Source: Rhodospirillaceae bacterium (lineage in GTDB: Bacteria; Pseudomonadota; Alphaproteobacteria; Rhodospirillales; UBA2165). From it: a stretch of 36,478 bases of DNA. Positions within the stretch are counted from its first letter, which is position 1. Each line of letters begins with the position of its first letter. Below the pieces are notes generated by a model. It did not search any database. It had not been told where the DNA came from and saw only the letters and a list, made by a program, of their open reading frames with translations. The stretch is from positions 1-36,478 of the forward strand of contig PBQI01000062.1 of assembly GCA_002725625.1 (NCBI GenBank), read 5' to 3'. Positions 14,500 to 35,590 of the stretch are shown here, in pieces. A program made the translations under genes and the position numbers.

Positions 14500-15336
14500 T
14501 TATATATAAATATCTGCCAGGGTGACGCTTTCACCGAGCTCGACATTAACGGATTTCTTTTCACTGCCGGCTTCCACTACGATGGTGTAGGCGCCGCTGT
14601 TCTCGTCTAGGCGGTCAAACTTGAAATCACCGAAATAATCGGTGGTGGCTTCCGCGACGACTTGGGTGTCCTTCATCAGTCGTACCTTGGCGTCCTTGAC
14701 GCAATCTTCAAAACCGTCTTTTTCGGTGGTCACGCTGCCGCCGATAAAGCATTTGTTATAAAGGTGCAGATTTTTGTAATAGACCCGGGGTTTGGCGTTG
14801 TATTCTGGGTGCAGGACTTCCAATCCTTCAACTTCGGCGATTTTAGCCATTTCTGTGTCGTCGACTTTTTTAGCCGTAATGGCAGCGGTAGCGCAGACAA
14901 TGGCCGCCCGCGGTTCCTTCCAGCCTTCGTCCAGCAGATGGGCATCGAAAATCCAGTGCTGGGGCAATTGCAGGTCGTCATTCCACCAGATAGCTTTGTA
15001 AGGGCAGGATTCGACCAGTTGTTTCTGGCCCTTGGCTTTTTCCGGATCGATCAGGACAATACCGTCGGACCGTTTAGTGACCGCGCCGTTTTCCGCCGCT
15101 TTGATGCAGGGGGCATTATCGCAATGCTGGCACATGACGGGCAGATAGGCGACATCGATCATGGGGACGGCGCCACGCTCTTTCCGCATGATTTCAATCC
15201 AGCGGTGACCGTGCTTGGGCATTTCCGCGGTATAACCAGGAAATTCATTGCCGTGATATTCATCCTGACAGGCGAGTACGCACATGTTGCAGTTGGTGCA
15301 GTTCTCAATATCAATAATCAAATTCCATTTAGACAT
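14500..15336 (-). CDS. Iron-sulfur subunit of a transhydroxylase-like molybdoenzyme
   Basis: A 278-residue DMSO-reductase-type ferredoxin subunit plus a C-terminal beta-sandwich (~residues 205-278) like the prealbumin/Cna-B-like tail of pyrogallol-phloroglucinol transhydroxylase beta. Cysteines present are 13, 16, 19, 23, 69, 72, 77, 111 and 148. By the standard pairing of this family, {13,16,19,148} and {69,72,77,111} make two complete [4Fe-4S] sites. The other two sites have lost nearly all ligands (Ala81; no Cys in GQKQLVES; Trp128, Asp131, Ala144). This fits an enzyme that does not pass electrons to an outside partner. The start at 15336 has TTAGGAG upstream. The gene is 27 bases behind the catalytic-subunit gene in one operon. 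A reductase subunit is the less likely alternative. Confidence 0.8.
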   Translation of the reverse strand: MSKWNLIIDIENCTNCNMCVLACQDEYHGNEFPGYTAEMPKHGHRWIEIMRKERGAVPMIDVAYLPVMCQHCDNAPCIKAAENGAVTKRSDGIVLIDPEKAKGQKQLVESCPYKAIWWNDDLQLPQHWIFDAHLLDEGWKEPRAAIVCATAAITAKKVDDTEMAKIAEVEGLEVLHPEYNAKPRVYYKNLHLYNKCFIGGSVTTEKDGFEDCVKDAKVRLMKDTQVVAEATTDYFGDFKFDRLDENSGAYTIVVEAGSEKKSVNVELGESVTLADIYI

Positions 15337-15363: not shown

Positions 15364-18360
15364 CTATTCGGCAGGGACCGCCACTTTTTCCATTTTCGGT
15401 GTTGTAGCGGCCGCTTCTGTCGTCTGATTCCAAGGTTCTATTTCCACCAGCGCCGTCGAATTGCCCATGGAATGGCCTTTTTTGATCTGCGATTTCATCG
15501 GTGTTAACAAGTTCAGGGTGCCGCCCAAGTCAGCGGATTTGCCCGGCGTACCAATGGGTTCATAGATGGCACACGATTCGTAGCCGTGCACGGAACCACG
15601 GGGCAGCCGTTGGGTGATCAGGGCGGCACAAATTACGGCGCCTTGGTCGTTATGTACCTTGACCAGATCGTGCATCTTAATGCCGCGTTCCTCGGCATCC
15701 TGTTCATTGATTCGGATGATCCAGTAATAGCGGTCATCCACCTTCACCCGGTGGTCTTTGATGTCATTGATATAGGTATCTTTGGCATCACCCTGAGAGT
15801 GGAAAGAAAAGCGCGGATGTGGTGTCAGCATACGCAGAGGATATTTTTCTTCCCGCTCGCCGCCGAACGGCGCGTTATAGCGCATCATGGGCGGGCGTTC
15901 TTTATCGTCCGGGTCGAAACGTTTCAGGCTTTCCGCTTCAAATTCGATCTTACCCGATTGGGTCTGAATGCCCCTGAGATATTCTTCTGAATAATCAGAC
16001 GGCAACGGCATCGGTTCTGGCACGTCTTTCTTGCGGCCTTCATAGAACCAGTTCCAGGAGACTGGATCACGTAGTTCCGGTTTCTCCGCCGGAATAACGA
16101 CATAGCCTTTGCGGATGAATTCTTTCCAGGAAACCACCTGCGGTATATCTGAGCCGTCAAAGATTCGTTTGGCCCAATCCAGTTCCGACATGCCTTCGGT
16201 AAAGTAGGCGCTGAGGCCCAGCCGTTCACAGATGCCCGAGAAAATCTGGTAGTCCGATTTCGATTCGCCCATTTTTTCGATCACCTGATGCTGGAAGGTG
16301 ATAACCCGGTGATTGAGCTGGGTTTCACCGTGATAGGCATAGCCCCCCAGCGACGCCCATTCACTGATGTCCGGCCGTTCCAGGTTGGTGCAAGCCGGCA
16401 GGATGATGTCTGCGAATTTAGCTTCACCCTCAAACCAGATGGCTTGGCTGACCACGGTTTCCAGATTTTCCGACTGATACATTTTTACGTGCCGGTTGCA
16501 GTCGGCCATGGTGGAGAAAATAGAGCCGCCGATTTTGTAAAGCATCCTGACTGGTGAATAGCCCGGCTTGGGATAGGATATTTTGTTAAATTGAGCCTCA
16601 ATGGTCTTGCCGTCCCAGGCGTAACCCGTTGCCTTACCCTCTATGATGGCTTCCGGCAAGTAAAGGCGCGGGATGGCCTGTTCCACCGTGTTCATGGACG
16701 GCAGTTGCGGCATCCGCTGGTAGAGTTCCACCGACATGGCTGTGTGGTGCAGATCACCGGAAATGCCGCCTTCGGCGTAGCCCGGGAAATAAAGGTTGGT
16801 GTCGACGGGCGTACCCCATTGCAGGCCGCCCATGTTGACGCCCGGTTTGCCCAGGCCCTGCATGGCCATCAGGTAAACCAGGGAGCGCGCCCACTGGATA
16901 CCGGTGGTGTTGCGGCAGGCGCCGCCGTGACCGTTGCCCCAGCCCCCGGCCGACAGATAAACTTTTTTGTTGCCCCATTCGCGGGCCAGCGCCCGGATGT
17001 CTTTGGCTTTGAGGCCTGTTTGTTTTGCCGCCCATTCCGGAGTTTTTGAAATGCCGTCTTCACCACCCATGACATAGGATTTCCACTGGTCGAAGCCGGT
17101 GGTGCGCTTGGCGACAAAGTCTTTGTCGTAGAGATCTTCTTCAATCCAGACATAGGCCAGACCGACCGCTAAGGCGGGCGAAGTCGCCGGTTTTGGCGCC
17201 AGCCATTTGCCGCCCAGAAACTGGGCCGTGTCGTTGTAATAGGGATCCACATGGACAAGTTTGACATCCAGTTCCTTCAGCCATTTGCGGCGGATGGTCC
17301 CTTCTAGGGAGCCATAGGCGCCACTGGTACCTTCCGGGTTGCTGGCCCAGAAGACGACCATTTCGGCCTCTTTGAGGAGGTCCTCGACGGTACCGTAGGT
17401 TTCCGTTTGTCCCACCCGGAGCGAGCCGCCCCAGTGGTGTGAGGCGCCCCAGTACCAGCCTTCCCAGCTGTCCGGATTGTGCAGGACGCGGGTCATGCCG
17501 ATGGTGTTGATAAAGCGGAAATCGGCGCTGAGGTAATAGCCTACATTGCCCCAGGTATGGTGGGAACCGTGCGAATTGGCGATGGCGCCCGGACCGTGCT
17601 CGGTCTTCATTCGCTTGATTTCATCGGCCACCAGATCGAAGGCTTCATCCCAGCTGATACGCTCATAGCCGGATATACCGCGTTCCTGCGTATTGCGTTC
17701 ACCTTTGGGGTCCCAATCGACACGCTTCATCGGGTAGAGCAGCCGGTCAGGCGAATAGACCATAGATTTCCAGTTCATGCCGTGGGGCGCCAGGGATGTT
17801 TTACGGGGCGGTGTAAATTTCTTGCCTCGTGCTTCGATGGTCCAGGGGCCGGCGTCATTCTCATCGAATTCAATGGGCGTCATGCGGATGATTTTGTTGT
17901 CTTTGACGTATAGAAATATCGGTCCGCCATTGGTCATGTTGGTGTAACGGGTGACACCGTTGCCCATGTCGACACCGAATTTCCAGCCGACGGTCTGGGT
18001 CTGCATGATGGTCTGGGTGAACCAGGAAGTCAGCTCGTCCGGACCTTCCAGGTTCAGTAGGAAGTCCTTCATGGCATTGACCTGTTCCAGCTGATTGATT
18101 GGTGGCATTAACAAACGAACAGCGATTTCCACCGTTTTGAAAGTCAGAACAACGTCGGCATTGTCAATTACGCGGCCCCCGGAAAGAACTTTACCGTCTT
18201 TGAAGGTGAAATAGCGGCCGGTCTTACCGTCTTTGGTTTTCATCAACGCGGTGAAGTTTTTTTCCTTCAAACGGTCGCGAAAAGCCTGATATCGAAATGC
18301 CTGTATCCAGAGGAGCATGCGCAAACCGAAAAGAATTAATGAGAACAAAAGGGAGCTCAT
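15364..18360 (-). CDS. Molybdopterin catalytic subunit resembling pyrogallol-phloroglucinol transhydroxylase, with N-terminal SCP2-like extension
   Basis: A 998-residue DMSO-reductase-superfamily protein. From about residue 124 it aligns by eye with the large subunit of Pelobacter pyrogallol-phloroglucinol transhydroxylase (about 875 residues). The residues I recall as catalytic there, H144, D174, S175 (Mo ligand) and Y404, fall at a constant offset of 123 on H267 (SHHTW), D297-S298 (NPDSW) and Y527 (YFPGY). No N-terminal [4Fe-4S] cysteine motif and no twin-arginine signal are present. The extra N-terminus has a hydrophobic helix (5-20), possibly a membrane anchor, then residues ~33-120 resembling an SCP2 sterol-carrier fold ([33 protein letters not shown]). 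Known enzymes move a hydroxyl group between aromatic rings in the cytoplasm; the substrate here is inferred. AAGGA precedes ATG 18360. Confidence 0.82.
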
Positions 18361-20157: not shown

Positions 20158-21243
20158 ATGCGCATACTCTCAAGAGCATTGCTTGGTTTGTCTGCTGTAG
20201 GGTTGGTTGCCGGTGCCCTGGTCACCAGTTCACCCGTTGACGCCAAGACCATTAAGGTCCGTATCGGTTCTGGCCATCCACCGACGGTGGTGTATGCCGG
20301 TTTGATGAAGACCTTTTTCCAGACGGAATTAAAAAAAGCCGTAGAATCCAAGACCAGCCATAAAATCAAATTTATCGAAGGTTACAGTGGTTCCATCGTT
20401 AAGGTGTTTGATGTGTTTGAAGGCGTACAGAACGGCGTTATCGACATCGGCGGTTTCTGCTACTGCTTCGAAGCGTCTAAGCTGAAAATGCATGCGTTCC
20501 AGATCATGCTGCCCTTCGGCACCATGGATCCGGTTCAGTCGGTCGCTATTGCAACGTCCGTTTACAAACAATTTCCGAGCCTTTCAAAGCGTTTCCAAAA
20601 GTTCGGCCAGACCTTGCTCGCCATAATCGGTGACGGCGGCTACAACCTGGGAACGCAGTTTCCATGGAAAGAGACTTCAGATCTTAAGGGGCGCAAAATT
20701 CTTGGCGCCGGCCTGAACCTCAATTGGTTGAAACGGGCAAATATCGGCATCGTCCCGGTGACCGATGGCCTTCCTGGCTGGTATCAGAAACTAAAAACGG
20801 GTGTTGCCGAGGGCGGCATTATGTTCCCCAGCGCCTGGGGTCCGGTCTTTAAACTTCATGAAGTCGGCAAATATTATACTGAGATCGGCTTTGGTTCGAT
20901 TACTTGGCACGGCCTGACGGTCAATAACCGCTTCTGGGCGAGCCTGCCGTCCGAACTCAAACCGATTTTCATGGAAGTGGCGGACCGCTATCGTCTTCAG
21001 ACCGGCACGTTCAACAAAGCAGGCTATAAAAAGGATATGGCTTGGCTGCGCAAAAATATAACCGTGACCAAGTTGCCTGCCGCAGTTCGTCAGGACTGGG
21101 CGCAAAAACTCGCTCATTGGCCGCAAATCCATGCCAATTCCTTGGAAAAGGAAGGTATGCCAGCAGTTAAAATCCTGAACGCCACACTCGATGCGGCGGA
21201 AAAGGTAGGCTACAAATGGCCGGTCCGGTACGTCGTCAAATAG
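20158..21243 (+). CDS. TRAP transporter substrate-binding protein (DctP type), system 1
   Basis: A 361-residue periplasmic binding protein with a signal peptide (MRILSRALLGLSAVGLVAGA..., cleavage probably after VDA at residue 29). It captures the ligand for the permease genes that follow. The DctP fold is recognisable by GVQNGVIDIGGF, DLKGRKILGAG and LKTGVAEGG. In most DctP proteins the segment after LKG ends in an Arg that salt-bridges a ligand carboxylate; here that position is Leu182. The ligand may therefore not be a simple carboxylate. ATG 20158 follows a strong GGGAGGA box. A 14-bp hairpin separates it from the permease genes. Confidence 0.92.
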   Translation: MRILSRALLGLSAVGLVAGALVTSSPVDAKTIKVRIGSGHPPTVVYAGLMKTFFQTELKKAVESKTSHKIKFIEGYSGSIVKVFDVFEGVQNGVIDIGGFCYCFEASKLKMHAFQIMLPFGTMDPVQSVAIATSVYKQFPSLSKRFQKFGQTLLAIIGDGGYNLGTQFPWKETSDLKGRKILGAGLNLNWLKRANIGIVPVTDGLPGWYQKLKTGVAEGGIMFPSAWGPVFKLHEVGKYYTEIGFGSITWHGLTVNNRFWASLPSELKPIFMEVADRYRLQTGTFNKAGYKKDMAWLRKNITVTKLPAAVRQDWAQKLAHWPQIHANSLEKEGMPAVKILNATLDAAEKVGYKWPVRYVVK

Positions 21244-21427: not shown

Positions 21428-21970
21428 ATGAACCTCATAACTATCAGTGACCGGCTGTCTAAGTTCCTGATGATCGTGGCAGCGACCTGGACTTTTGGCC
21501 TGTCCTTTCTGGTGCTCGCTAACATTATTGGACGCACTTATCTGGATGCACCCATTCACGGTACCGCCGAAATGGTCGCCGCCTCCATCGTCATTGTCGT
21601 TTTCCTGCAGGTGGGTTATGCCATCCGCAGCCGATCAATGCTGCGGGCCGATTTCCTGGTCAACCATTTTCCGGATTGGCTGCAACGCACCTTGCTCGCC
21701 ATCGGTTATCTGCTCGGTGCAACCTTTTTCCTGATGATTATTACCGGCGGCTGGGAAGAGAGTATTCTTTCCTATGTTGAAAACGAATTTGAGGGCGAAG
21801 GCGCCATGCGCGTACCGTCCTGGCCGGCGCGCTGGACAGTATTAGTCGGCAGTGCTCTGGCAATGATCAACTATTTCGTCATGGCCTATCTTGATATATT
21901 CAGGCCCGATTTGTTGGACAGCGAGGTGCTCACTGGTCCGGAGTCGGGCGTGTCCGGTTCGCAAGGATGA
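21428..21970 (+). CDS. TRAP transporter small permease (DctQ type), system 1
   Basis: A 180-residue membrane protein with four hydrophobic helices: LMIVAATWTFGLSFLVLANI, VAASIVIVVFLQVGYAI, LLAIGYLLGATFFLMII and WTVLVGSALAMINYFVMAY. The family signature sits around the first pair of helices (NIIGRTYLDAPIHGTAEMV), followed by the charged SRSMLRADFLV stretch. It partners the large permease, whose ATG is 15 bases past this stop codon. The start at 21428 has only a weak ribosome binding site. Confidence 0.9.
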   Translation: MNLITISDRLSKFLMIVAATWTFGLSFLVLANIIGRTYLDAPIHGTAEMVAASIVIVVFLQVGYAIRSRSMLRADFLVNHFPDWLQRTLLAIGYLLGATFFLMIITGGWEESILSYVENEFEGEGAMRVPSWPARWTVLVGSALAMINYFVMAYLDIFRPDLLDSEVLTGPESGVSGSQG

Positions 21971-21985
21971 TGGAGAGCATGCGTC

Positions 21986-23362
21986 ATGTTTGAAGCCAAT
22001 ACCGCCATTATTCTCGTTGTTTGCCTGCTGGGTCTAGTAGCTTTTGGCGTCCACATCGCTATTGCGCTGGGCATGACCAGCGCCCTCGGCATCTGGCTCG
22101 TTACCGGTGCCGACAGCTATGCTTTCCGTACTGTGCAGACCATGCTGGCGGCGACCGCCTATGAAGCGATCCGCGCCTACGTCTTTGCCGTCATTCCCCT
22201 CTTTATGCTGATGGGTGAATTTATCGGTAGATCGGGAACTGTGACCGATGTCTACCGGGGGATCAACCGCCTGCTGAAAAAGATTCCTGGTCGTCTTGCT
22301 ATTGCCACGGTGATCGGCAATGCCCTGTTCTCCTTTGTCACTGGGGTCAGCATTGCCTCCGCCGCCGCCTTTTCACGCATCGCCTATCCAGAAATGAAGC
22401 GTTTCGGGTATCACAAGGGTTTCGCGCTGGGCGCTGTCGCCGGGTCAAGTTGTCTCGGCATGCTCATACCGCCGAGCGTGCTTATGATCGTCTGGGGTAT
22501 TCTTACTGAACAGTCGATTGGTCAAATTTTTGCAGCAGGTGTGCTACCTGGTCTTCTTCTGACGGCCCTGTTCATAATTTACGTCTTTTCTAGGTCTATT
22601 ATAAATCCGGGCCTCGTGGGTGCCGGCGCTAGTTCGGAAACAGCTAAAGCCGTGGGTGCAGACATTACACTGGAAGAGGTGGATGAAGTCTCCACCGGTC
22701 AGTTTATAGTTAGCCTCATTGGTATTATGTTGGTGATTGTCACTGTTTTGGGCGGTATTTGGTTCGGTATTTTCACACCGACCGAAGGCGCGGGTGCGGG
22801 CGCATTCATTGGGCTAATGCTGGGCATCATCAAAGGCATGCGGTTCCGCGAAATTATCGATTCGATTTTGAATGTGGGGCGGACGTCAGCGCCGATTTTA
22901 CTACTGCTCGTTACGGCGGCGCTTTATTCACGGACACTCGCCATGACCGGCATGGCCAACGCCATTGAAGGCGTCTTTTTGGGATCTGGAATGCCTAATT
23001 GGTTGATTCTCACCGTCATGGTGGGAATCTGGTTCTTGTTGGGCATGATCATCGATTCCATATCAATCATGCTGCTGACGGCGGCTATCTTTGCACCGAT
23101 CGCCGTTAAGATGGGTATGGATCCCATTGCCTTCGCCGTTGTCGGTATTATCGCCATTGAAGCAGGGCTATATACGCCGCCCTTTGGATTGCTGGTCTAT
23201 ACCGTGAAATCTGCGATACAGAATATAGAACCGGATATGAACGTTATGACCATCTTTAAGAGTTCGACACCCTATTGGATGATAATGCTCATTGGCATGA
23301 TTCTGATCATAAACTTTCCGGAGATCGCAACCTACTTACCGAGATTGCTGTTCGCCAGTTAG
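21986..23362 (+). CDS. TRAP transporter large permease (DctM type), system 1
   Basis: A 458-residue polytopic inner-membrane protein, the Na+-coupled translocating subunit. Typical segments are VIPLFMLMGEFIGRSG, FVTGVSIASAAAFSRIAYPEMKRFGY, GSSCLGMLIPPSVLMIVWGILTE (split here for brevity), FGIFTPTEGAGAGAF and GMIIDSISIMLLTAAIFAPI. The length is a little above the usual 425-440 because of an insert at about residues 205-225 (SRSIINPGLVGAGASSETAK). Start ATG 21986 is preceded by GGAGAG. An overlapping ATG a few bases earlier is out of frame and stops at once. Confidence 0.93.
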   Translation: MFEANTAIILVVCLLGLVAFGVHIAIALGMTSALGIWLVTGADSYAFRTVQTMLAATAYEAIRAYVFAVIPLFMLMGEFIGRSGTVTDVYRGINRLLKKIPGRLAIATVIGNALFSFVTGVSIASAAAFSRIAYPEMKRFGYHKGFALGAVAGSSCLGMLIPPSVLMIVWGILTEQSIGQIFAAGVLPGLLLTALFIIYVFSRSIINPGLVGAGASSETAKAVGADITLEEVDEVSTGQFIVSLIGIMLVIVTVLGGIWFGIFTPTEGAGAGAFIGLMLGIIKGMRFREIIDSILNVGRTSAPILLLLVTAALYSRTLAMTGMANAIEGVFLGSGMPNWLILTVMVGIWFLLGMIIDSISIMLLTAAIFAPIAVKMGMDPIAFAVVGIIAIEAGLYTPPFGLLVYTVKSAIQNIEPDMNVMTIFKSSTPYWMIMLIGMILIINFPEIATYLPRLLFAS

Positions 23363-24113: not shown

Positions 24114-24539
24114 ATGAGCAAAGTTACGCTGGCCCAGGCCGACACCATAATCGATGCGGCCATGGCCAAGGGGCATGAACTAGAATTAAACCCGCTAACC
24201 GTAGCGGTAATGGATGACGGCGGGCATCTGGTTGCCTTTAAGCGTGAAGACAATAGCAGCCTTCTCAGGTTTGATATTGCCACCGGCAAGGCCTGGGGTG
24301 CCTTGGGCATGGGGGTGCCGTCGAGAGCTTTGGAGCAACGCTCCAAGGAACGCCCCGGTTTTGTGAACGGATTAATCACTGCTTCGGGCGGGCGGCTCAT
24401 TCCGGCGGCTGGAGGTGTCCTGATCAAGGATGACAACGGGCTGACCATCGGCGCTGTCGGCATCAGCGGCGATACTTCTGACAATGATGAAACCTGCGCC
24501 TTCGCCGGTATCGAAGCGGCTGGCCTCGCCCATTCTTAG
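24114..24539 (+). CDS. GlcG/HbpS-family protein
   Basis: The 141-residue product has the GlcG/HbpS fold: TLAQADTIIDAAMAKGHEL, LTVAVMDDGGHLVAFKRED, SSLLRFDIATGKAWGALGMG, GGRLIPAAGGVLI and IGAVGISGDTSDNDETCA. Characterised relatives bind haem or act as accessory proteins in glycolate or aromatic loci; the enzymatic role is mostly unknown. A GGGGATAGGAG box lies just upstream of ATG 24114. The TauE-type gene follows 40 bases after its stop, suggesting a two-gene unit. Confidence 0.88.
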   Translation: MSKVTLAQADTIIDAAMAKGHELELNPLTVAVMDDGGHLVAFKREDNSSLLRFDIATGKAWGALGMGVPSRALEQRSKERPGFVNGLITASGGRLIPAAGGVLIKDDNGLTIGAVGISGDTSDNDETCAFAGIEAAGLAHS

Positions 24540-24540
24540 C

Positions 24541-24582
24541 AAACTAGAAAAGTATAAATGGTAAACTAGAAAAGTATAAATG
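24541..24582 (+). repeat. 22-bp tandem duplication ending at a start codon
   Basis: AAACTAGAAAAGTATAAATG occurs at 24541-24560 and again, identical, at 24563-24582, with GT between them. The ATG in the second copy (24580) starts the TauE gene, while the ATG in the first copy runs straight into TAG. The leader and start codon have therefore been duplicated recently. Neither copy has a convincing Shine-Dalgarno box. Confidence 0.9.
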
Positions 24583-25356
24583 CTCGAATTTTCGATTATT
24601 ACCACCCCGTTGTTCTACGCGGTTGCCATTCCGGCGGTGCTGTCCATGGGGATAGCCAAAGCGGGCATTGGTGGTACGGGCGGCTTGGCGACACCCTTAA
24701 TGGCCCTAGCCGTCACCGTTCCCCAGGCTGCGGCCATCCTTTTACCGATTATTTGCATCGCCGATATTTTCGCTATTACCGTTTATCGGAAGAAGTGGGA
24801 CAGGGACAATATCAAGATTATGATCCCGGCAGCGGCGGTTGGGATAATCTTCGGCACCTTAAGCTTCAAATACTTGGACCCGGCGGCAATTAAAATCGTT
24901 ATTGGTGCGATCGCGGTTGTTTTTGCGCTGGAACGACTTTTGAACTACCTGTTTAAAAAAGAAGTCCGGGAGCCAACCAAACCGGCTGTCATCAAAGGTG
25001 GCTTCTGGTGTTCCATATCCGGGTTTACCAGCTTCGTCGCCCATTCCGGCGCGCCGCCGCTGAACGTCTATATCATTCCCCAGAAAATGGACAAGTCGAT
25101 CTATATGGGTACATTGGCGATTTATTACGCCTTCGTGAACTACGCCAAGATTGTTCCCTATTGGTGGCTGGGTCAGTTTCACATCACCAACCTCTGGACT
25201 TCAGTTGTTTTGTTGCCTGTGGTGCCGGTGGGGATTTTGCTGGGTCTTTGGATCCACAAAAACGTCAACGATGTTTTGTTTTACCGGATTATTATCACGT
25301 TGTTGTTCTTCACCGGCTTGAAGTTGTTATACGACGGTATCACCACGCTGATCTAA
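24580..25356 (+). CDS. TauE/SafE-family membrane permease
   Basis: A 258-residue protein made almost entirely of hydrophobic helices, with the TauE/SafE pattern: GIAKAGIGGTGGLATPLMAL near the N-terminus and its repeat GGFWCSISGFTSFVAHSGAPP in the second half. The family exports sulfite, sulfoacetate and related anions in sulfonate metabolism, but many members are of unknown substrate. Its stop codon overlaps by four bases the stop of the convergent second TRAP operon. The start lies in the second copy of a tandem repeat. Confidence 0.88.
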   Translation: MLEFSIITTPLFYAVAIPAVLSMGIAKAGIGGTGGLATPLMALAVTVPQAAAILLPIICIADIFAITVYRKKWDRDNIKIMIPAAAVGIIFGTLSFKYLDPAAIKIVIGAIAVVFALERLLNYLFKKEVREPTKPAVIKGGFWCSISGFTSFVAHSGAPPLNVYIIPQKMDKSIYMGTLAIYYAFVNYAKIVPYWWLGQFHITNLWTSVVLLPVVPVGILLGLWIHKNVNDVLFYRIIITLLFFTGLKLLYDGITTLI

Positions 25357-26675
25357 TTGCCGAACAGGTTGACGAGGAATAGGGTAATGCCGGGGAAGGT
25401 GACAAGCAGTCCTACCCGCACGACGTCCGAGGCAATGAACGGCGCCACGCCCTTAAAGGTTTGGGCGATGGGAGTGTCTTTAGACATAGAGTTGATCACG
25501 AACACATTCATCCCCACAGGAGGAGTGATAAGCCCTGTCTCCACAACGATCAACGCAACGATGCCGAACCAGACTTTAACGTCTTCTGGATTCATTCCGA
25601 AATCCATTTCTTCCAAAATCGGCCAGAAAATAGGAATGGTCAGCAGGATCATGGATAGCGAATCCATGACGCAGCCGCCGATTAGATAGAAAAACAATAT
25701 CACCGCCAACACCAGGATAGGGGCCATTTGAGCGTCGCTGATCATGGCCGCCAGTTCCTGCGGCAGTTGGGTCAGAGCGAGAAAAACGTTCAGTACATCG
25801 GCACCGAAAATAATCAGGAAAATCATACCCGTGGTCTGGCCTGCGCCCAGGACACTTTCGATAAATCCGTCTTTGCGCATGCCACCGTTAAAAAACGCCA
25901 GGATGCCGGTGCCGATGGCGCCGAAGGCTGCGCCTTCGGTCGGCGTAAAGACGCCGGTATAAATGCCGCCGATAACCACGATGAAAATCAGTACCACCGT
26001 CCAGATTTCCTTGATGGCTGCCCATCTCTCCGAAGCCGTGGATCGCTCGCCGGAGGGTCCGGATTCAGGCGATACCCGGACATAGATCATAATGACGATA
26101 ATGTAGCCGAGGGCGGCAATAAATCCCGGTATGAAAGCAGCTAGGAACATGGTGGCGATATTGGCTTCAACCAGAACGGCATAGATCACCAGGATCACCG
26201 ACGGCGGGATCAATATTCCCAGGGTGCCGCCTGCCGCCAACGCACCGGTTGCCAAGGATCCGGAATAATTGAAACGCCGAAGTTCCGGTAGTGCCACTTG
26301 GCCCATGGTGGCTGCCGTGGCCAGGGATGAGCCGCAAATAGCGCCAAACCCGGCGCAGCCGCCAATGGCCGCCATAGCGACGCCACCCTTCCGATGGCCC
26401 AGGAACACATTGGCTGCATCAAACAGGGCTTTGCTCATGCCAGCACGAGTGGCGAACTGACCCATGAGCAGGAAAAGGGGTACTACGGACAAGTCATAGG
26501 TGGAAAAGCGCCAATAGGCTGCGCTGTTGAAATAGTTTAATAATGGAGTCCACCCGGCAACGGCGACGTACCCGGTAATGCCGACAGCGATCATGGCGAT
26601 GGCGATGGGCAGTCTGAGGGCGATCAGGAGCAGGAGTACGCCCAGCATGAAAAAGCCGAATTCAAGGCCTTCCAT
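25353..26675 (-). CDS. TRAP transporter large permease (DctM type), system 2
   Basis: A 440-residue polytopic membrane protein of usual family length: VVPLFLLMGQFATRAGMSKA, GFGAICGSSLATAATMGQ, GGTLGILIPPSVILVIYAVL, YTGVFTPTEGAAFGAI, GGCVMDSLSMILLTIPIFWP and VVETGLITPPVGMNVFVI. It forms the transport channel with the small permease, whose TAA overlaps this ATG by one base (TAATG), indicating translational coupling. Confidence 0.94.
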   Translation of the reverse strand: MEGLEFGFFMLGVLLLLIALRLPIAIAMIAVGITGYVAVAGWTPLLNYFNSAAYWRFSTYDLSVVPLFLLMGQFATRAGMSKALFDAANVFLGHRKGGVAMAAIGGCAGFGAICGSSLATAATMGQVALPELRRFNYSGSLATGALAAGGTLGILIPPSVILVIYAVLVEANIATMFLAAFIPGFIAALGYIIVIMIYVRVSPESGPSGERSTASERWAAIKEIWTVVLIFIVVIGGIYTGVFTPTEGAAFGAIGTGILAFFNGGMRKDGFIESVLGAGQTTGMIFLIIFGADVLNVFLALTQLPQELAAMISDAQMAPILVLAVILFFYLIGGCVMDSLSMILLTIPIFWPILEEMDFGMNPEDVKVWFGIVALIVVETGLITPPVGMNVFVINSMSKDTPIAQTFKGVAPFIASDVVRVGLLVTFPGITLFLVNLFGN

Positions 26676-27217
26676 TATAGTTCACCTTCCAGGGGATCGT
26701 GCTCGACTTGGGCTTCGAAATAGTGTTGCCAAATCGTGTAAATGGTCACACAGACCAACAATGCCATGCACGGCATGATAAAAATAAAAACGTACGCCCG
26801 GGGTATTTGCAGAATGACGGTTTCTTCATTGGTGTGAAGAAAATCGATGCCACCGACCGCTAGGCGCCACGTAATCAAGATGATAATCAAGCTGTAAAAT
26901 ACGGCGCTGATGGAATCCAATATTCCTTTGGTGCGGGGGGACGAATTGTGGGTAAAAAAATCAACTAGCACATTACCCTTTTTAAGTTGGCAATAGGGTA
27001 GAAACGTAAAGACTGCCACGGCGCAGGCCATTTCAACCAACTCAAAGTCGCCCGGAATAGGTACGTTGAAGAAATAACGTCCAATTACGCTGGCCACGGT
27101 GAGGATGCCTGCGGCGGTTAAGCAAGCTCCGCCGATAATGACGAAGGTCCGCGTCAAACGGGTAAGCACTCGGCCCACAGGATCGGACCGAGTGCTTAAT
27201 GGTAGTGTTTCGGTCAT
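26675..27217 (-). CDS. TRAP transporter small permease (DctQ type), system 2
   Basis: The 180-residue product has four membrane helices. The DctQ signature is VASVIGRYFFNVPIPGDFEL followed by LPYCQLKKGNVLVDFF. It lies between the binding-protein gene (40 bases upstream) and the large permease (one-base overlap), so the three genes form a single minus-strand operon. No strong ribosome binding site is seen before ATG 27217. Confidence 0.92.
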   Translation of the reverse strand: MTETLPLSTRSDPVGRVLTRLTRTFVIIGGACLTAAGILTVASVIGRYFFNVPIPGDFELVEMACAVAVFTFLPYCQLKKGNVLVDFFTHNSSPRTKGILDSISAVFYSLIIILITWRLAVGGIDFLHTNEETVILQIPRAYVFIFIMPCMALLVCVTIYTIWQHYFEAQVEHDPLEGEL

Positions 27218-27257: not shown

Positions 27258-28295
27258 CTATTTCGAGTACTTTTCGATCAAAGCGTTGGCCTCGGCCAAC
27301 AATGCCTTACCGTCATGCCCTTTCTTGGTTACGTCGGCAACCCACGCCTGATGGATTTTAGCCGCCGAGGCTTTCACCTTAGCAACGTCCGCATCGGACA
27401 GGGTGGCAAACTTATTACCCCGCTTGACGGCCATGGCTTTAAATTTACCTTCAATACCGTCATAGGCCTTACCGACTTTGGCGGCGATGTTCATGCCACT
27501 GTTTTTGTCGATGACTTTTTTCATATCGGCCGGCAATCCGTTATAGAACTTTTTGTTCATGCCCAAGAAGAAAGTGGCGGCGATCAAACCACGGGGGCCT
27601 TCGATCAAAGTATGATTGGGAGCGATCTGTTGAATTTTGAAAGGAATAACGATTTCCCACGGCAAAACCGCGCCGGCGACCACGCCTTTGGAAAGCGCTT
27701 GTGGTACTTTCGGCACCGGCATGAAGACCGGGGTCGCGCCCATGGATTTCAAAAGATCGCCCATGCCACGGTTGGTGGCGCGTACTTTGAGGCCGTTAAA
27801 GTCGGAAACGGTTTTAATCTGCTTTTTTACCATGTGAATTTTGAAACGTGCGGCCGTATGGAAAAGCAGGGGATGGACGTCCTTGTATTCGTCCATCAGG
27901 TGCTTTTGAGCAAATTCCTGAAAAGCCTGGGTGGTGGCTTCGGCGGTCGACACCATAAACGGCAAATCGAATACCGACGTCAGCGGAAAGCGGCCACCGC
28001 TGTAACCCGGTAGGGTCCAGCCAATTTCAGTGATGCCGTCTTTAATTTGGTTGAAAACCTGCGGTGGACGTCCGCCGAGGGACATGGCGTGATAAACCTG
28101 CGCCGAAATTCGGCCGCCTGAATCTTTCTCAAGCGCCTTCTTCATCGGCGACAGCAGAAACACGTTAACCGGCGCTTTTGACGGTGTCTGATGGTGCATT
28201 TTAATTTTGAAATCGGCGGCCGAAGCCTTATCGGTGCTGGCCGCATAGGTCAGTGCTACGGCGCCTGCCAAGATGGGTGTAATAATTTTTTTCAT
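27258..28295 (-). CDS. TRAP transporter substrate-binding protein (DctP type), system 2
   Basis: A 345-residue periplasmic binding protein with a signal peptide, probably cleaved after ASA (residue 26). Family features are SLGGRPPQVFNQIKDGITEI, DLPFMVSTAEATTQAF and FNGLKVRATNRGMGD, where R172 is the conserved ligand-carboxylate-binding arginine, unlike system 1. The ligand is therefore likely to be an organic acid. ATG 28295 has GGGAG 11 bases upstream. It heads a three-gene operon converging on the TauE gene. Confidence 0.93.
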   Translation of the reverse strand: MKKIITPILAGAVALTYAASTDKASAADFKIKMHHQTPSKAPVNVFLLSPMKKALEKDSGGRISAQVYHAMSLGGRPPQVFNQIKDGITEIGWTLPGYSGGRFPLTSVFDLPFMVSTAEATTQAFQEFAQKHLMDEYKDVHPLLFHTAARFKIHMVKKQIKTVSDFNGLKVRATNRGMGDLLKSMGATPVFMPVPKVPQALSKGVVAGAVLPWEIVIPFKIQQIAPNHTLIEGPRGLIAATFFLGMNKKFYNGLPADMKKVIDKNSGMNIAAKVGKAYDGIEGKFKAMAVKRGNKFATLSDADVAKVKASAAKIHQAWVADVTKKGHDGKALLAEANALIEKYSK

Positions 28296-29159: not shown

Positions 29160-30005
29160 TTAGGCGTTGGCGGTATACAGCGCCAGATTTGCGTTGCCGC
29201 TGGCCGACGATTGGGCGTAAGGACCGTATTGATTACCCGCCAAACTTTCCGTCTCCCGCTGTAGTGCTGCAGCAGCGCCAAGGAAGACACCAAGGCCCCG
29301 GCCACCCATTTCGCATTTTGCGTCCCGGGCATATTCGGGCAGCCATTTAATGGCGTCATCGATGGCGGTGTCTTTAACCATGCTGATGAATTTCTGATCC
29401 ATTTCCTGATGCTCTGGCAGGGGCCATGTATCCGGTCCTCTCACCACCAGATGGGTGAGGGCATTGCTGACAACAACAACCACCCGCTTTTTTAGTTTTT
29501 TTGCCGTGGCGTCGATTAGTTCGCCAACCTTGAAATTCTCATCCAGGTCGGAGGCATAACACGTCGGCGTGACAACGGCAGGGATGGTGCCGTCAGGGTC
29601 AATATACTGCATGGGAACGGCGGTGCCGTAATCCCAATGGAAGTGTGGCGTATCGGTGGGATAACAGGGAATTTCTGCATCATTCAGTTGCGCCCCTAGG
29701 GCTTCTGCATATTCCCGGTTTCCGGGGCGGCTATAGGGCAGGCCAGGGATCAGATGCGGGGCTTCTTCGGCAATGCAGACGCCTTCATGCTGGTCGTGGG
29801 CCGTGACCACCCAGTCAAATGTTGTGATCCAATGAGTGGTATTTACGACAAATAAATCCGGTTTAAGTCCGCGCAGGATTTCGCCCATTTCCTTTAATCC
29901 GTCGATCAGTCCCAGAGTGAAATCCCAGGCTTTGTCTTCATAGGCCATACGCGGCGTGTGCGATGCGATTGACGAAGCAATTACGCCATATTTTCCGTCA
30001 TTCAT
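29160..30005 (-). CDS. Class III (LigB-type) extradiol ring-cleavage dioxygenase
   Basis: From the ATG at 30005 the product is 281 residues, with AAAGGAG upstream. A longer frame from 30059 overlaps the regulator gene and is not used. LigB-superfamily features: SSIASHTPRM (H16), VNTTHWITT (H58) and CEMGGRG (E232) are the likely two-His-one-Glu iron site, and VVVVSNALTHLV carries the proposed acid-base His (H185). It should open a catechol or 2-aminophenol ring beside the hydroxyl. In 2-aminophenol 1,6-dioxygenase two homologous subunits pair; only one is here. It begins four bases after the GntR stop, so both are one transcript. The downstream genes point to an aminophenol-type substrate, but catechol or a carboxylated ring cannot be excluded. 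Confidence 0.85.
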   Translation of the reverse strand: MNDGKYGVIASSIASHTPRMAYEDKAWDFTLGLIDGLKEMGEILRGLKPDLFVVNTTHWITTFDWVVTAHDQHEGVCIAEEAPHLIPGLPYSRPGNREYAEALGAQLNDAEIPCYPTDTPHFHWDYGTAVPMQYIDPDGTIPAVVTPTCYASDLDENFKVGELIDATAKKLKKRVVVVVSNALTHLVVRGPDTWPLPEHQEMDQKFISMVKDTAIDDAIKWLPEYARDAKCEMGGRGLGVFLGAAAALQRETESLAGNQYGPYAQSSASGNANLALYTANA

Positions 30006-30009
30006 TGAT

Positions 30010-30735
30010 TTAATCTCCTTTCTGGTGATCGGTGGCGACAAGTTCATGCACCACGTCAAATGTCTTTTCGATGTGTTGCGTCAGGACGCTTTTGAGTTTT
30101 TTGACATCCTGCACCATGGCTGCATCAAATATCTGTTTGTGCTCCTCATGCACATCGCGGCTTACACCGACAGTTTGCAGGGACATCCGCCGATACCGTT
30201 CCGAATGCGTATGCAGGACGGTCCGGAAGCGGCGGTTCCAGTGAGACGGGCAGGCGGCCACCAGGGCTTCATGGAATTCAGTGTTGCGTTGCTCCCAAAT
30301 GTCCGAAGCCTCGCCCGCCAGATCACTGGCCTGCTCCTCGACATTGGTCAACCGGTGATAGGCGCCAACCAGACCGACCTCCCAATCTTCGTCACCGTTT
30401 TCAACGGACTTACAGGCGGCGCGTACTTCTAACAGGACACGCATTTCTGAGATGTCCCTGAGATCTTCAAGGGAGATCGGCGCGACATTGAAGCCGCGCT
30501 GCGCCGTCGCTGTTACCAGAGATTCGGATACCAGGAGGGACAGCGCTTCTCGAAGCGTGGCGGCGCTGACACCGTATTCTTCTTTCAAATGCTGGACCCG
30601 AAGTTTTTCACCGGGTTTTAATTTGCCGTAAATAATTTCTTCCCGAAGTTGGTTTAAGGCATCCAGGGCCAGCGTGCTGGATACCGGCGCGGCACTGTTT
30701 TCTGGGGTTTTCACGGTAATTTCATTACATTGCAT
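30010..30735 (-). CDS. GntR-family regulator, FadR/FCD subgroup
   Basis: The 241-residue protein has a winged helix-turn-helix at about residues 25-90 (LREEIIYGKLKPGEKL, YGVSAATLREALSLLVSE, RGFNVAPIS) and an all-helical FCD ligand domain (ISEMRVLLEVRAA, FHEALVAAC, HEEHKQIFDAAM). FCD-type regulators of aromatic pathways are usually repressors released by a pathway acid. It is divergent from the semialdehyde dehydrogenase gene and leads straight into the dioxygenase gene. It is the natural candidate for controlling both arms. Confidence 0.92.
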   Translation of the reverse strand: MQCNEITVKTPENSAAPVSSTLALDALNQLREEIIYGKLKPGEKLRVQHLKEEYGVSAATLREALSLLVSESLVTATAQRGFNVAPISLEDLRDISEMRVLLEVRAACKSVENGDEDWEVGLVGAYHRLTNVEEQASDLAGEASDIWEQRNTEFHEALVAACPSHWNRRFRTVLHTHSERYRRMSLQTVGVSRDVHEEHKQIFDAAMVQDVKKLKSVLTQHIEKTFDVVHELVATDHQKGD

Positions 30736-30815: not shown

Positions 30816-30884
30816 TAATTTTCTCGGCGTGCATCCCTGATTGATTTAACAGGACGCTCTCTGCGTTTCACCATGGAGGATATA

Positions 30885-32369
30885 ATGGATAAGGCCGTCA
30901 AAACTTCAGTCGGAGAGACGTTGAATTTTGTCGGGGGGGAATATCGGAAAAGTTCGTCGGGGAAGACCTTCGATAATATCAATCCCATAGACGGTTCTGT
31001 CGCGTCGATTGTCCACGAGGCTGACGCCACCGATGTTGATGCCGCCGTCACGGCTGCCAATGAGGCCCTCAACGGTGAATGGGGCCAGATGCCCCTGGCC
31101 AAGCGCCTGGAACTGGTCGCTGCCGTTGCCGACGAGATCAATCGCCGTTTCGATGAATTTCTTGAAGCCGAAGTTGCCGATACCGGCAAGCCGGTCAGTT
31201 TGGCGTCCCATATCGATATTCCGCGGGGCGCCGCTAATTTTCAAATTTTCGCCGATACCATGAAGAACCATCACGGTGAGTTCTATAACTCACCCACACC
31301 GGACGGAACGGGCGCCATCAACTATACATCCGAACGTCCCAAAGGCGTCATTGCCGTGGTCTGCCCGTGGAATCTCCCCTTGTTGTTGATGACCTGGAAA
31401 GTAGGGCCGGCGCTAGCCTGCGGTAACACCGTTGTGGTCAAGCCATCGGAGGAGACGCCCCAGACAGCCTCGCTGCTGGGAGAAGTGATGAACATAGTGG
31501 GTATCCCCAAAGGCGTCTACAATGTGGTTAACGGGTTCGGACCCAATTCCACTGGCGAGTTCCTGGTCAAGCATCCCAATGTCGATGCCATCACTTTTAC
31601 CGGTGAGACGGTCACGGGTGAAGCGATCATGCAGAACGCCGCCGTCGGCATGCGCGATGTGTCGTTCGAACTGGGTGGTAAGAATTCCTCTATTGTTTTT
31701 GCTGACTGCGACATGAACAAGGCCATTGAAGGCACGGTCCGCTCGGTCTTCGCCAATTGCGGCCAAGTGTGTCTAAATACGGAAAAGGTCTTTGTCGAAC
31801 GCCTCATATATGATGATTTTGTCGCCCGGCTTAAAACCGAAGTGGAGAAAATGAAACCGGGTCTGCCCGGTGATGATGGCACAGACATGGGGCCCCTGGT
31901 CAGTCAGGAACACCGTAAAAAGGTGCTCTCTTATTATGAGGCGGCGGTCAAAGAAGGCGCCACGGTCGTCACCGGCGGCGGCATTCCCGACATGCCCGAT
32001 GACTTGAAAGACGGTTCCTGGATTGAGCCCACCATTTGGACCGGTCTGGCGGACGACGCCTCGCCCATTATCGACGAAATATTCGGGCCTTGTTGTCATA
32101 TCAGGCCGTTCGATACGGAAGTGGAAGCCATCAAATTGGCCAATGACAGTAAATATGGACTGGCTTGTTCCATCTGGACGGAGAACCTCAGCCGCGCCCA
32201 CAGGGTGGGCCCGCAGATGGATGTCGGACTGTGCTGGATCAACTGCTGGTTTCTGCGCGATCTCCGCACGCCCTTCGGCGGCGCCAAGCAGTCGGGTATT
32301 GGCCGTGAAGGCGGTGAATATTCCCTTGAGTTCTATCTGGAAACCAGCAACGTTTGCGTCAAACTATAA
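30885..32369 (+). CDS. 2-hydroxymuconic / 2-aminomuconic semialdehyde dehydrogenase
   Basis: An aldehyde dehydrogenase of 494 residues from ATG 30885. The GGAGGA at 30875-30880 is its ribosome binding site and makes the ATG at 30873 unlikely. Active-site features are CPWNLPL (N163), VVKPSEETP (K186), the FTGET nucleotide loop, SFELGGKN (E262) and NCGQVC with catalytic C296. Family resemblance is to the XylG/AmnC group, which oxidises the ring-cleavage semialdehyde to 2-hydroxy- or 2-aminomuconate with NAD+. It heads a five-gene plus-strand run with short gaps. Substrate choice between the hydroxy and amino form rests on the deaminase gene nearby. Confidence 0.9.
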   Translation: MDKAVKTSVGETLNFVGGEYRKSSSGKTFDNINPIDGSVASIVHEADATDVDAAVTAANEALNGEWGQMPLAKRLELVAAVADEINRRFDEFLEAEVADTGKPVSLASHIDIPRGAANFQIFADTMKNHHGEFYNSPTPDGTGAINYTSERPKGVIAVVCPWNLPLLLMTWKVGPALACGNTVVVKPSEETPQTASLLGEVMNIVGIPKGVYNVVNGFGPNSTGEFLVKHPNVDAITFTGETVTGEAIMQNAAVGMRDVSFELGGKNSSIVFADCDMNKAIEGTVRSVFANCGQVCLNTEKVFVERLIYDDFVARLKTEVEKMKPGLPGDDGTDMGPLVSQEHRKKVLSYYEAAVKEGATVVTGGGIPDMPDDLKDGSWIEPTIWTGLADDASPIIDEIFGPCCHIRPFDTEVEAIKLANDSKYGLACSIWTENLSRAHRVGPQMDVGLCWINCWFLRDLRTPFGGAKQSGIGREGGEYSLEFYLETSNVCVKL

Positions 32370-32384
32370 TTCGGGAGGTAAATC

Positions 32385-33173
32385 GTGGTTGAAAACGCGA
32401 TCATTCAAAAGGCAGCTGATCAACTGCAACAGGCTTATGACAGTGGTATCGGATGTTTGCCGGTCCGGGAACTATTGCCGGAAGGTGATATCGATGCGGC
32501 CTATGAAGTGCAGGAGGTCAATACTGAACGACGGCTTGAGGCAGGCGGGAGGCTGGTGGGCCGTAAAATCGGCCTGACGTCCAAGCTGGTGCAGAAGCAA
32601 CTGGGCGTCGACCGGCCCGATTTCGGTATGTTGTTCGCCGATATGGAAATTGCCGATGGCGAGGAAGTGCCTTCGGACAAACTTCTGGCACCCCGCGTAG
32701 AGGGCGAAATCGCCTATGTGCTGGGTAAGGATCTTAATGTGGAGAACCCGACGACGACGGATGTCATCAAGGCTATCGATTACGCCACACCTTCTATTGA
32801 GATTGTCGACAGCCGTATCAAAGACTGGGATATCAATATTCAGGACACCATCGCTGACAATGCCTCGGCGGTACTCTATGTGCTGGGCAATCAGAAAGTA
32901 TCACTGGATTCCTTTGATGGTCGGCTTTGCGGTATGGTGGTGGAGCATCGCGGTGAGCCGGTGTCCGTTGGCGCCGGCGCGGCCTGTCTCGGCCATCCGA
33001 TTAACGCGGTCAAATGGCTGGCTGACGAGATGGTGCGGCGGGGACGGCCCTTATCGGCCGGCGACGTGGTGATGTCGGGTGCACTTGGCCCCATGGTGCC
33101 GGTCAAGTTCGGTGAAGTCTACGAGGTCAGTATTAACGGACTTGGTTCTGTACGAGCGGCATTCGGCGCTTAA
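32385..33173 (+). CDS. 2-oxopent-4-enoate hydratase-like protein
   Basis: A 262-residue member of the MhpD/XylJ hydratase family. RVEGEIA gives E106 and E108, and SIEIVDSRI gives E139, the three metal ligands at the same numbers as in E. coli MhpD as I recall them. It would add water to 2-oxopent-4-enoate to give 4-hydroxy-2-oxovalerate, after the decarboxylation step carried out by the neighbouring gene product. Start GTG 32385 with GGGAGG upstream; 15 bases follow the dehydrogenase stop. Confidence 0.88.
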   Translation: MVENAIIQKAADQLQQAYDSGIGCLPVRELLPEGDIDAAYEVQEVNTERRLEAGGRLVGRKIGLTSKLVQKQLGVDRPDFGMLFADMEIADGEEVPSDKLLAPRVEGEIAYVLGKDLNVENPTTTDVIKAIDYATPSIEIVDSRIKDWDINIQDTIADNASAVLYVLGNQKVSLDSFDGRLCGMVVEHRGEPVSVGAGAACLGHPINAVKWLADEMVRRGRPLSAGDVVMSGALGPMVPVKFGEVYEVSINGLGSVRAAFGA

Positions 33174-33203
33174 TCAACAAATTAAATTTAAGGAGAACAT
33201 CGC

Positions 33204-33974
33204 GTGGGCGTGGATTTGGATAAATTAGCTAAGACAGTAGATGAGGCGGCGCGGTCGGCGACCGCCATTCCGCAGCTGTCGGAGAGCGAAAATTTTAGTC
33301 TTGACGAGGCTTACGAAATACAAGCCAAAAGCATTCAGCGGCGGTTCGATCGTGGCGAAGTGCGGGTCGGTATGAAAATGGGCTTTACCAGCCGCGCCAA
33401 GATGGTGCAGATGGGTGTTGACGATATGATTTGGGGCCGCCTCACCGACGGTATGTTGGTAGAGGATGGCGATGTCATCGACTTTGCCCAATACGTTCAT
33501 CCCCGGGTGGAGCCGGAAGTCGCATTTCTCCTGAAAGCCCCGTTGGAAGGGCCGGTGACCCCCATCCAGGCCATGGCGGCGGTGGAAGCCATGGCCCCCG
33601 CCTTGGAGATCATCGATTCCCGCTATAAGGATTTCAAGTTTTCCGTTGAGGACGTGGTTGCCGACAATTCATCTTCTTCCGGGTTCGTGGTCGGCAACTG
33701 GTGCCAGCCCGACCAGGATATCGCCAACCGGGGCATGGTCATGGAGTTCAATGGCCGTCCGGTGCAGATCGGCTCCAGCGCTGCCATCCTCGGCAATCCG
33801 GCACGGTCCCTGGTGACGGCTTCCCGTATGGTGACGGAACATGGTGAACGTTTGGAAGCCGGCTGGATCGTCATGGCCGGCGGTGCTACGGCGGCGGAAG
33901 CCCTGTCACCCGGCGTATCTGTCCGCAATACCGTCGAAGGGTTGGGAAAAGTCGGATTCGGGGTTACGGGCTGA
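33204..33974 (+). CDS. 4-oxalocrotonate (2-oxo-3-hexenedioate) decarboxylase-like protein
   Basis: A 256-residue paralogue of the preceding hydratase, closer to the XylI/DmpH/AmnE decarboxylases: VGMKMGFTSRAKMVQMGV, RVEPEVAFLL (E103, E105), ALEIIDSRYKDFKF (E135) and VVADNSSSSGFVVG. In known pathways hydratase and decarboxylase form a complex, consistent with adjacent genes. Start GTG 33204 with AGGAGAA upstream. Its TGA overlaps the ATG of the SDR gene by one base. Confidence 0.88.
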   Translation: MGVDLDKLAKTVDEAARSATAIPQLSESENFSLDEAYEIQAKSIQRRFDRGEVRVGMKMGFTSRAKMVQMGVDDMIWGRLTDGMLVEDGDVIDFAQYVHPRVEPEVAFLLKAPLEGPVTPIQAMAAVEAMAPALEIIDSRYKDFKFSVEDVVADNSSSSGFVVGNWCQPDQDIANRGMVMEFNGRPVQIGSSAAILGNPARSLVTASRMVTEHGERLEAGWIVMAGGATAAEALSPGVSVRNTVEGLGKVGFGVTG

Positions 33975-34726
33975 TGGCTGAAAACAAAATTGATCTCAAT
34001 GGCCGCAATGCGATTGTGACCGGCGGCGCAGCGGGGCTTGGATTCGCCATCGCCGATCGCCTGGCCGGTTCCGGCGCCAATGTCTGCATTTGGGATTTAA
34101 ACCAAGATGCGATTGATGAGGCGGTGGGTAAGCTGACTGGTAACGCAGCCGGGGTTGTCTGCAATGTGGCCGATGCGGCGTCGGTTGCCGATGCTGTGGC
34201 GGCGACCAAGGAAAAACTGGGGTCTATCCATATCACCGTGAACAATGCCGGTATTTCCGGCCCCAACATGACTAGCTGGGAATATCCGCCGGAAGAATGG
34301 CAGAAGGTGATCGACGTTAATTTGACCGGCACTTTCCTGGTCTCCAGCACTGTCATCCCGGAGATGATCAACGCCGACTATGGCCGGATCGTCAATATCG
34401 CCTCGGTGGCGGGCAAGGATGGCAATCCCCAGGCACCCGCGTATTCAGCCAGTAAGGCCGGGATTATTGGTCTGACTAAAGCGCTCGGCAAGGAGTTGGC
34501 CAATACCAACGTATTGGTTAATTGTGTGACGCCGGCAGCGGTGCGTACGGCTATATTCGACCAGATGACCCAGGATCATATTGACTTTATGCTTTCTAAA
34601 ATTCCCATGAACCGGTTCGGCCAGCCCGAGGAAATCGCTGCCATGGTGGCGTGGCTGAGTTCAGAAGAATGTTCGTTTTCAACCGGCGGCGTATTCGATC
34701 TGTCCGGTGGCCGGTCAACCTACTGA
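33974..34726 (+). CDS. SDR-family oxidoreductase
   Basis: A 250-residue classical short-chain dehydrogenase/reductase. It has TGGAAGLG (nucleotide loop, residues 16-23), NNAG (90-93) and the catalytic set N117-region, S144, Y157 and K161 (YSASK). The end of the second strand reads CIWDLN, where an Asp favours NAD(H). Close sequence feel is to 3-oxoacyl reductase-type enzymes. Translationally coupled to the decarboxylase gene. No SDR is needed in the standard meta-cleavage route, so it may oxidise or reduce a side-chain alcohol or act before ring cleavage; this is inference. Confidence 0.88.
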   Translation: MAENKIDLNGRNAIVTGGAAGLGFAIADRLAGSGANVCIWDLNQDAIDEAVGKLTGNAAGVVCNVADAASVADAVAATKEKLGSIHITVNNAGISGPNMTSWEYPPEEWQKVIDVNLTGTFLVSSTVIPEMINADYGRIVNIASVAGKDGNPQAPAYSASKAGIIGLTKALGKELANTNVLVNCVTPAAVRTAIFDQMTQDHIDFMLSKIPMNRFGQPEEIAAMVAWLSSEECSFSTGGVFDLSGGRSTY

Positions 34727-34738
34727 TAGGAAATTGCC

Positions 34739-35590
34739 ATGGAACTCGTTAGCTACCATAGCGATGGAATTGACCGTTATGGTGTGGTCAAGGAGGACGG
34801 CATCGTCGATATGTACGCTCGGTTGGGAAAGTCTTACCCGACCCTTCGGGACGTCATTGCGGCAGGTGAAATTGACCGGCTTCAGGAAATTGCCGACGGT
34901 GCCGATGCCGATCATTTTTTAGACGATGTGGATTTTAACCTGCCCATTCCCAACGTGCAGAAAATCATGTGCGCAGGGCGCAACTATCACGCCTATCATG
35001 AGGTCGTTGAGGAGGGAAAAACCCCCGAATATCCGAGCGTATTCGGTCGCTTTTTCAGCGGTTTCTCCGCCCATGGCGAGGATATTCTAAAACCGCAAGC
35101 CGGCGAACGGTTCGACTACGAAGGCGAATTGGTGGCCGTTATCGGTAAGCGTACGAGGCATATTTCCATTGATGACGCCTTGGATGCCATTGCTGGTTAT
35201 ACCATCATGAACGAAGGCACCGTCCGAGACTGGATGCCCAAGGGCACGCAGAACACACCGGCTAAGAATTTTTACCGCTCCGGCGGCATTGGCCCGTGGA
35301 TCGTGACCAAGGAAGATGTCGGCGACCCGTCTGATCAGCACATTATCACGCGGCGCAACGGTGAGGTGGTACAGGACGGTGGCACCGATATGATGATTTT
35401 CGATACCCAATATCTGATATCGCATATATCAAAATTCACCTGGCTGGAGCCGGGCGACATGATCGCCACCGGCAGTCCCGGCGGTTCCATCATCGAAAGC
35501 GGTGATCCGCAATGGCTTCAGGCCGGCGATGTGGTGGAAGTGGAAATCCCGCTGATCGGCATCCTCAGTAATACGGTTGCCGATGAGTAA
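34739..35590 (+). CDS. Fumarylacetoacetate hydrolase (FAH)-family protein
   Basis: A 283-residue protein of the FAH/HpcE group that hydrolyses, hydrates or decarboxylates beta-diketo or 2-oxo-enoate acids. Key segments are IMCAGRNYHAYHEV, FDYEGELVAVIGK (metal ligands E128, E130), TIMNEGTVRD (E159 at the third ligand position, commonly Asp), GIGPWIVT and LEPGDMIATGSPGG. The start at ATG 34739 is 12 bases after the SDR stop, with AGGAAATTGCC between. It closes the plus-strand operon and is convergent with the deaminase gene two bases away. Confidence 0.88.
   Translation: MELVSYHSDGIDRYGVVKEDGIVDMYARLGKSYPTLRDVIAAGEIDRLQEIADGADADHFLDDVDFNLPIPNVQKIMCAGRNYHAYHEVVEEGKTPEYPSVFGRFFSGFSAHGEDILKPQAGERFDYEGELVAVIGKRTRHISIDDALDAIAGYTIMNEGTVRDWMPKGTQNTPAKNFYRSGGIGPWIVTKEDVGDPSDQHIITRRNGEVVQDGGTDMMIFDTQYLISHISKFTWLEPGDMIATGSPGGSIIESGDPQWLQAGDVVEVEIPLIGILSNTVADE

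Follow-up and report, generated by a model that had tools for sequence, protein, structure and literature searches.

A single arginine is the reason why TRAP transporters are seen chiefly as carriers of organic acids into the cell. In SiaP this conserved residue, R147, is tied to selectivity for carboxylates, and the known ligands of DctP-type binding proteins are nearly all acids (PMC4646407). The R147A variant of SiaP still binds sialic acid, weakly and through water, and high-affinity uptake is abolished; SiaP without the arginine also still closes, and an engineered variant took an amide (PMC4646407). Since the Arg-less protein closes and binds weakly, the rest of the transport cycle is independent of the arginine. 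Loss of this residue is unusual, yet has precedent: 199 of the 6142 members of the DctP family (3%) lack it, Tp0957 has Ala for Arg and a hydrophobic pocket, and the Arg-less Csal_0678 has ethanolamine as its ligand (PMC4646407).

Here we describe a DctP-type protein, P1, in a window of 36,478 nucleotides from a marine Rhodospirillaceae bacterium; "the window" means this whole stretch of DNA. It carries two TRAP systems close to genes for the degradation of aromatic compounds, see Table 1. The gene of P1 is followed by its own Q and M genes, forming a complete PQM set.

Table 1. Features of the window, in order of position.
Feature	Position	Strand	Remarks
AhtS-like iron-sulfur small subunit	14500..15336	-	4v4c_B, E 1.5e-73
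AhtL-like molybdoenzyme large subunit, pyrogallol hydroxytransferase/resorcinol hydroxylase type	15364..18360	-	PF21423; 4v4c_A, E 3e-283
Flavin reductase, divergent neighbour of P1	19428..19925	-	PF01613, 134.8 bits; adjoins P1 in 10 loci
TRAP1 P (P1), DctP-type binding protein	20158..21243	+	361 residues; Leu182 at the canonical Arg position
Codons of P1 K180-I181-L182-G183	20695..20706	+	from the translation; strand 180-183 of the model
TRAP1 Q, small permease (DctQ)	21428..21970	+	PF04290, 79.5 bits; syntenic with P1 in orthologous loci
TRAP1 M, large permease (DctM)	21986..23362	+	PF06808, 254.7 bits; syntenic with P1
HbpS-like protein and TauE-type exporter	24114..25356		between the two TRAP systems; retained with them in several loci
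TRAP2 M, large permease	25353..26675	-	adjoins the TRAP2 Q and P genes on the shared strand; homologues beside other P genes
TRAP2 Q, small permease	26675..27217	-	PF04290, 73.3 bits
TRAP2 P (P2), binding protein with R172	27258..28295	-	5i5p, E 2e-74; TarP_Sse 7nr2, E 2e-68
LigB-type extradiol ring-cleavage dioxygenase	29160..30059	-	PF02900, 74.2 bits; TIGR02298 below cut-off
Meta-cleavage genes: aldehyde dehydrogenase, 2-oxopentenoate hydratase-like, oxalocrotonate decarboxylase-like, SDR, FAH-family hydrolase	30873..35590	+	

P1 has a Sec-type signal peptide, as judged by eye, and matches the DctP profile PF03480 with 66.2 bits (curated cut-off 23.4). In the translated segment SDLKGRKILGAG residue 182 is Leu. 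An AlphaFold model built from 33 sequences has a mean pLDDT of 90.7, and its residues 180-183 form a short strand. The fold is that of an ordinary DctP protein: the top Foldseek match is 4n6d (E 7e-21, TM-score 0.76/0.85), with an identity to the solved members of about 15-21%.

From the sequence alone, the earlier note had claimed that P1 lacks the arginine that grips a carboxylate, and had proposed alignment and structure prediction as checks. Both agree with the claim: Leu182 is found at the position of SiaP R147, within a normal DctP fold. In HMMER alignments Leu182, or the consensus of its clade, lies opposite the Arg of 4n6d and of 4pgn/4nap in a segment free of gaps. In a MAFFT alignment the column is Arg in 10/10 Arg-bearing comparators and Leu in 27/27 orthologues (73-87% identical). 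The 14 nearer paralogues have Leu, Ala or Gln there and the 15 remoter ones Ala, Gly, Ser, Tyr, Phe or another residue, so that none of the 56 aligned clade members has Arg. Nine more loci from other families and orders also show Leu, some of them being records already counted. With Leu182, P1 does not have the R147-equivalent Arg that marks a SiaP-like, carboxylate-binding DctP protein.

The suggestion that another arginine, R179, might take over the role was not upheld. This column is not a conserved Arg: it holds His in 14 orthologues, Arg in 11 and Lys in 2, and is Ile in the next clade, and we reject R179 as a replacement ligand residue. The Arg-bearing proteins have Leu, Met or Val there. 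A sequencing error or chance behind Leu182 is excluded, because the residue is invariant among orthologues of 73-87% identity. Nor is the loss peculiar to the source genome, as it is clade-wide. We are nearly certain that the arginine is missing in P1 and that its absence is a kept trait.

To see how coherent this group is, it helps to consider the tree of 75 proteins, from which the columns of the trait itself were left out. The 56 Arg-less sequences are united with a support of 100/99, and one remote member is added at 98/79. Three changes of the trait are needed among the 75 proteins, the other two being lone Arg-less proteins of the source genome. Because the proteins were chosen for their similarity to P1, the tree speaks for the coherence of the clade and not for the overall frequency of such losses.

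At least five of the 20 DctP proteins of the source genome are without the arginine (P1, L012, L016, L019 and L020; L018 is not counted). Two of these, L012 and L016, fall outside the P1 clade and have Val and Leu instead, apparently through independent losses. In a plasmid collection only distant relatives of P1 were present (best 41% identity). These are annotated as "C4-dicarboxylate" binding proteins, a label that is doubtful because the arginine is absent. At three loci a DctP-family protein that looks to be without a signal peptide is encoded just upstream of the Arg-less P gene (L118:6836-7756, L125:7815-8807 and L126:8360-9367); such proteins might be cytoplasmic sensors.

No solved relative of the clade was recognised among the PDB matches listed, and no paper on it was found in the literature searched. 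Arg-less DctP proteins are already known, and the P1 clade is a new, uncharacterised and coherent variant of them.

What, then, does P1 bind? Because the loss is conserved and the arginine is tied to carboxylate selectivity (PMC4646407), it is fair to infer that its ligand probably does without the usual carboxylate anchor.

The residues that may line the pocket point in the same direction, in so far as they can be judged from conservation. Tyr162 is kept throughout the clade (27/27, 14/14 and 12/15 from the near to the remote group), Trp190 is conserved much like it, and both are mostly absent from the Arg-bearing comparators. In the alignment with 9dsy, Tyr162 falls at the SiaP R127-equivalent second basic site, 20 residues before column 182, a site that varies in the comparators too. 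The orthologues also fix Trp208, Phe223, Trp227, Cys101 and Cys103. The cleft of P1 would thus be aromatic and largely uncharged, with Tyr162, Trp190 and Phe223 as putative wall residues together with Trp208 and Trp227 of the orthologues.

Among the conserved residues there are also basic ones, and a ligand that is still a carboxylate or sulfonate could be held by His40 (in the SGHPP loop), His112, His251, Lys82 or backbone amides. In that case the loss of the arginine would alter the geometry of binding and not its chemistry. Nearly all members of the near clades have His40 (27/27 orthologues and 12/14 nearer relatives), and it is common in the remote group; His112, His251 and Lys82 are invariant in the orthologues. 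The weak, water-mediated binding that SiaP R147A kept, and the acids that make up almost all known DctP ligands, are consistent with such a ligand (PMC4646407). However, no conserved Arg or Lys substitutes at the site itself, and in SiaP the loss ended high-affinity uptake (PMC4646407). We regard an acid held in this way as possible, although somewhat unlikely.

Near P1 lies the AhtLS pair. Both subunits align over most of their length with the pyrogallol-phloroglucinol transhydroxylase/resorcinol hydroxylase 4v4c. H267, D297 and Y528 of AhtL are conserved and correspond to H144, D174 and Y404 of 4v4c, which we take to be the active site of pyrogallol hydroxytransferase. There are two differences from 4v4c. 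AhtL has about 135 extra N-terminal residues, without a Pfam match, that by eye resemble a putative small lipid- or sterol-carrier-like domain. The AhtS proteins of the window and of orthologous loci read HWIFD...AAIVC where the small subunit of 4v4c has KCTMC...RCAHNC, so that three of the four cysteines of one iron-sulfur cluster site seem to be gone. Pyrogallol hydroxytransferase and resorcinol hydroxylase are cytoplasmic and act on neutral phenols (PMC10100899); by analogy, a neutral phenol is a candidate substrate of AhtLS. Six AhtL-like enzymes are encoded in the source genome and 2-6 in most of its family relatives; these bacteria are far removed from the anaerobes for which the enzyme was described.

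In 11 genomes of the window's GTDB family (the home family), the source among them, P1 and an AhtL-like gene are 1.9-10.7 kb apart; these are related genomes and not independent cases. The spacing changes between genomes, and the most divergent linked P1 is 58% identical (G007, L088). In the remaining genomes of the family no AhtL was found on the contig of P1, many of these contigs being very short. Further, HpaB-type phenol hydroxylases are found in four P1 loci and extradiol-cleavage genes in some loci of the home family; the LigB-type dioxygenase and the meta-cleavage genes are common to the window, L024 and L029.

Outside the home family the picture is different. Orthologues with 73-80% identity from other families and orders are found beside a xanthine-oxidase-type hydroxylase (L118, L121), a quinone oxidoreductase and a hydroxyisobutyrate-dehydrogenase-like gene (L119, L120), an amidase (L122), a uracil phosphoribosyltransferase and an acyl-CoA synthetase (L123) or a cyclase (L124). 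AhtL was not recognised in the flanks read at L118-L124. The combination of high conservation and varied neighbours suggests one common ligand that is not defined by the AhtL pathway alone. Because such similar orthologues sit beside unrelated genes, the ligand of P1 is not deducible from the AhtL cluster, and this is the main weakness of reading it as a phenol.

These neighbours would fit a common uncharged or zwitterionic molecule outside the AhtL pathway, such as an amide, an imide, a pyrimidine-like compound or an N-heterocycle, the linkage to AhtL then being incidental or regulatory. The amidase, uracil phosphoribosyltransferase, cyclase, quinone oxidoreductase and xanthine-oxidase-type genes beside close kin of P1 agree with this, as do the cyclase and 3-keto-5-aminohexanoate cleavage genes that adjoin remoter clade members. 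Against it, no one alternative partner recurs, and a linkage to AhtL in 11 genomes, down to 58% identity of P1 and with changed spacing, suggests more than chance. On balance we find a ligand of this kind unlikely.

A cation or amine, as bound by Csal_0678, would have a precedent in an Arg-less DctP protein (PMC4646407). However, no recurring amine-metabolism genes were seen near P1 in the loci read and no acidic residue marks column 182 of the clade, which makes such a ligand very improbable. That P1 is degenerate or does not bind at all, as its divergent DctP score of 66 bits might hint, is extremely unlikely, given that the reading frame and the partner genes Q and M are all intact, that orthologues from several genera are conserved at 73-87% and that Leu182 is invariant.

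It was suggested in the earlier note that P1 may bind an uncharged or non-carboxylate aromatic, such as a phenol or an amine, which would fit the pathway genes. The clade-wide loss of the arginine and the linkage to AhtL in the home family speak for this, and a neutral phenol is coherent with that linkage; an amine is not specially supported, and the ligand is not readable from the cluster.

The explanation that we tentatively favour, at somewhat less than even chances, is that P1 closes on a neutral ring compound free of the anchor, in the home family a phenol. In the clade the carboxylate-gripping arginine has given way to a small or hydrophobic residue, Leu182 in P1. P1 would close around a ligand that needs no carboxylate anchor, perhaps assisted by polar contacts such as His40, and pass it to the Q and M subunits of TRAP1. 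Our best guess for the home family is a neutral phenol or a ring compound like it, which may feed the neighbouring AhtLS molybdoenzyme and the ring-cleavage genes.

As had been claimed, the second TRAP system of the window retains the arginine: R172 is invariant in the alignment of P2 and lies opposite the Arg of 5i5p. With this arginine and its close match to solved members, P2 is of the TarP type, and it resembles proteins whose solved structures contain coumarate, cinnamate or another aromatic acid. TRAP2 would accordingly be expected to import aromatic acids. The locus could then be read economically as a pair of importers, one with the arginine for aromatic acids and one without it for neutral phenols. 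It should be noted that neutral phenols cross membranes readily, and therefore the need for a high-affinity importer is not obvious.

A broader proposal, that the widespread Arg-less clade imports uncharged ring compounds and that P1QM of the home family brings in neutral polyphenols with high affinity for a pathway in which an AhtL-type molybdoenzyme is combined with oxygen-dependent ring cleavage, is in our view doubtful. A coherent Arg-less clade in marine alphaproteobacteria would broaden the cargo of TRAP transporters and correct the misleading "C4-dicarboxylate" annotation. An Arg-bearing and an Arg-less TRAP system within one aromatic-degradation locus offer a clean paired test.

Compared with known systems, P1 resembles SiaP, 4n6d, 4nap and 4p56 in its DctP fold, its PF03480 domain and its PQM gene set, but P1 and its clade are without the conserved arginine of these proteins. 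The missing arginine is shared with Tp0957 and Csal_0678. The P1 clade is probably separate from these two, neither of which was recognised among the PDB matches listed. The hallmark of the clade is a motif of the type K-[ILV]-x-[GA]-[AP]-G together with the conserved Tyr162 and Trp190. The TarP-type binders (7nr2, 7nqg and 5i5p) tie TRAP uptake to aromatic catabolism, as at the P1 locus. However, they take aromatic acids, in 5i5p with the arginine, while P1 is remote from them and Arg-less.
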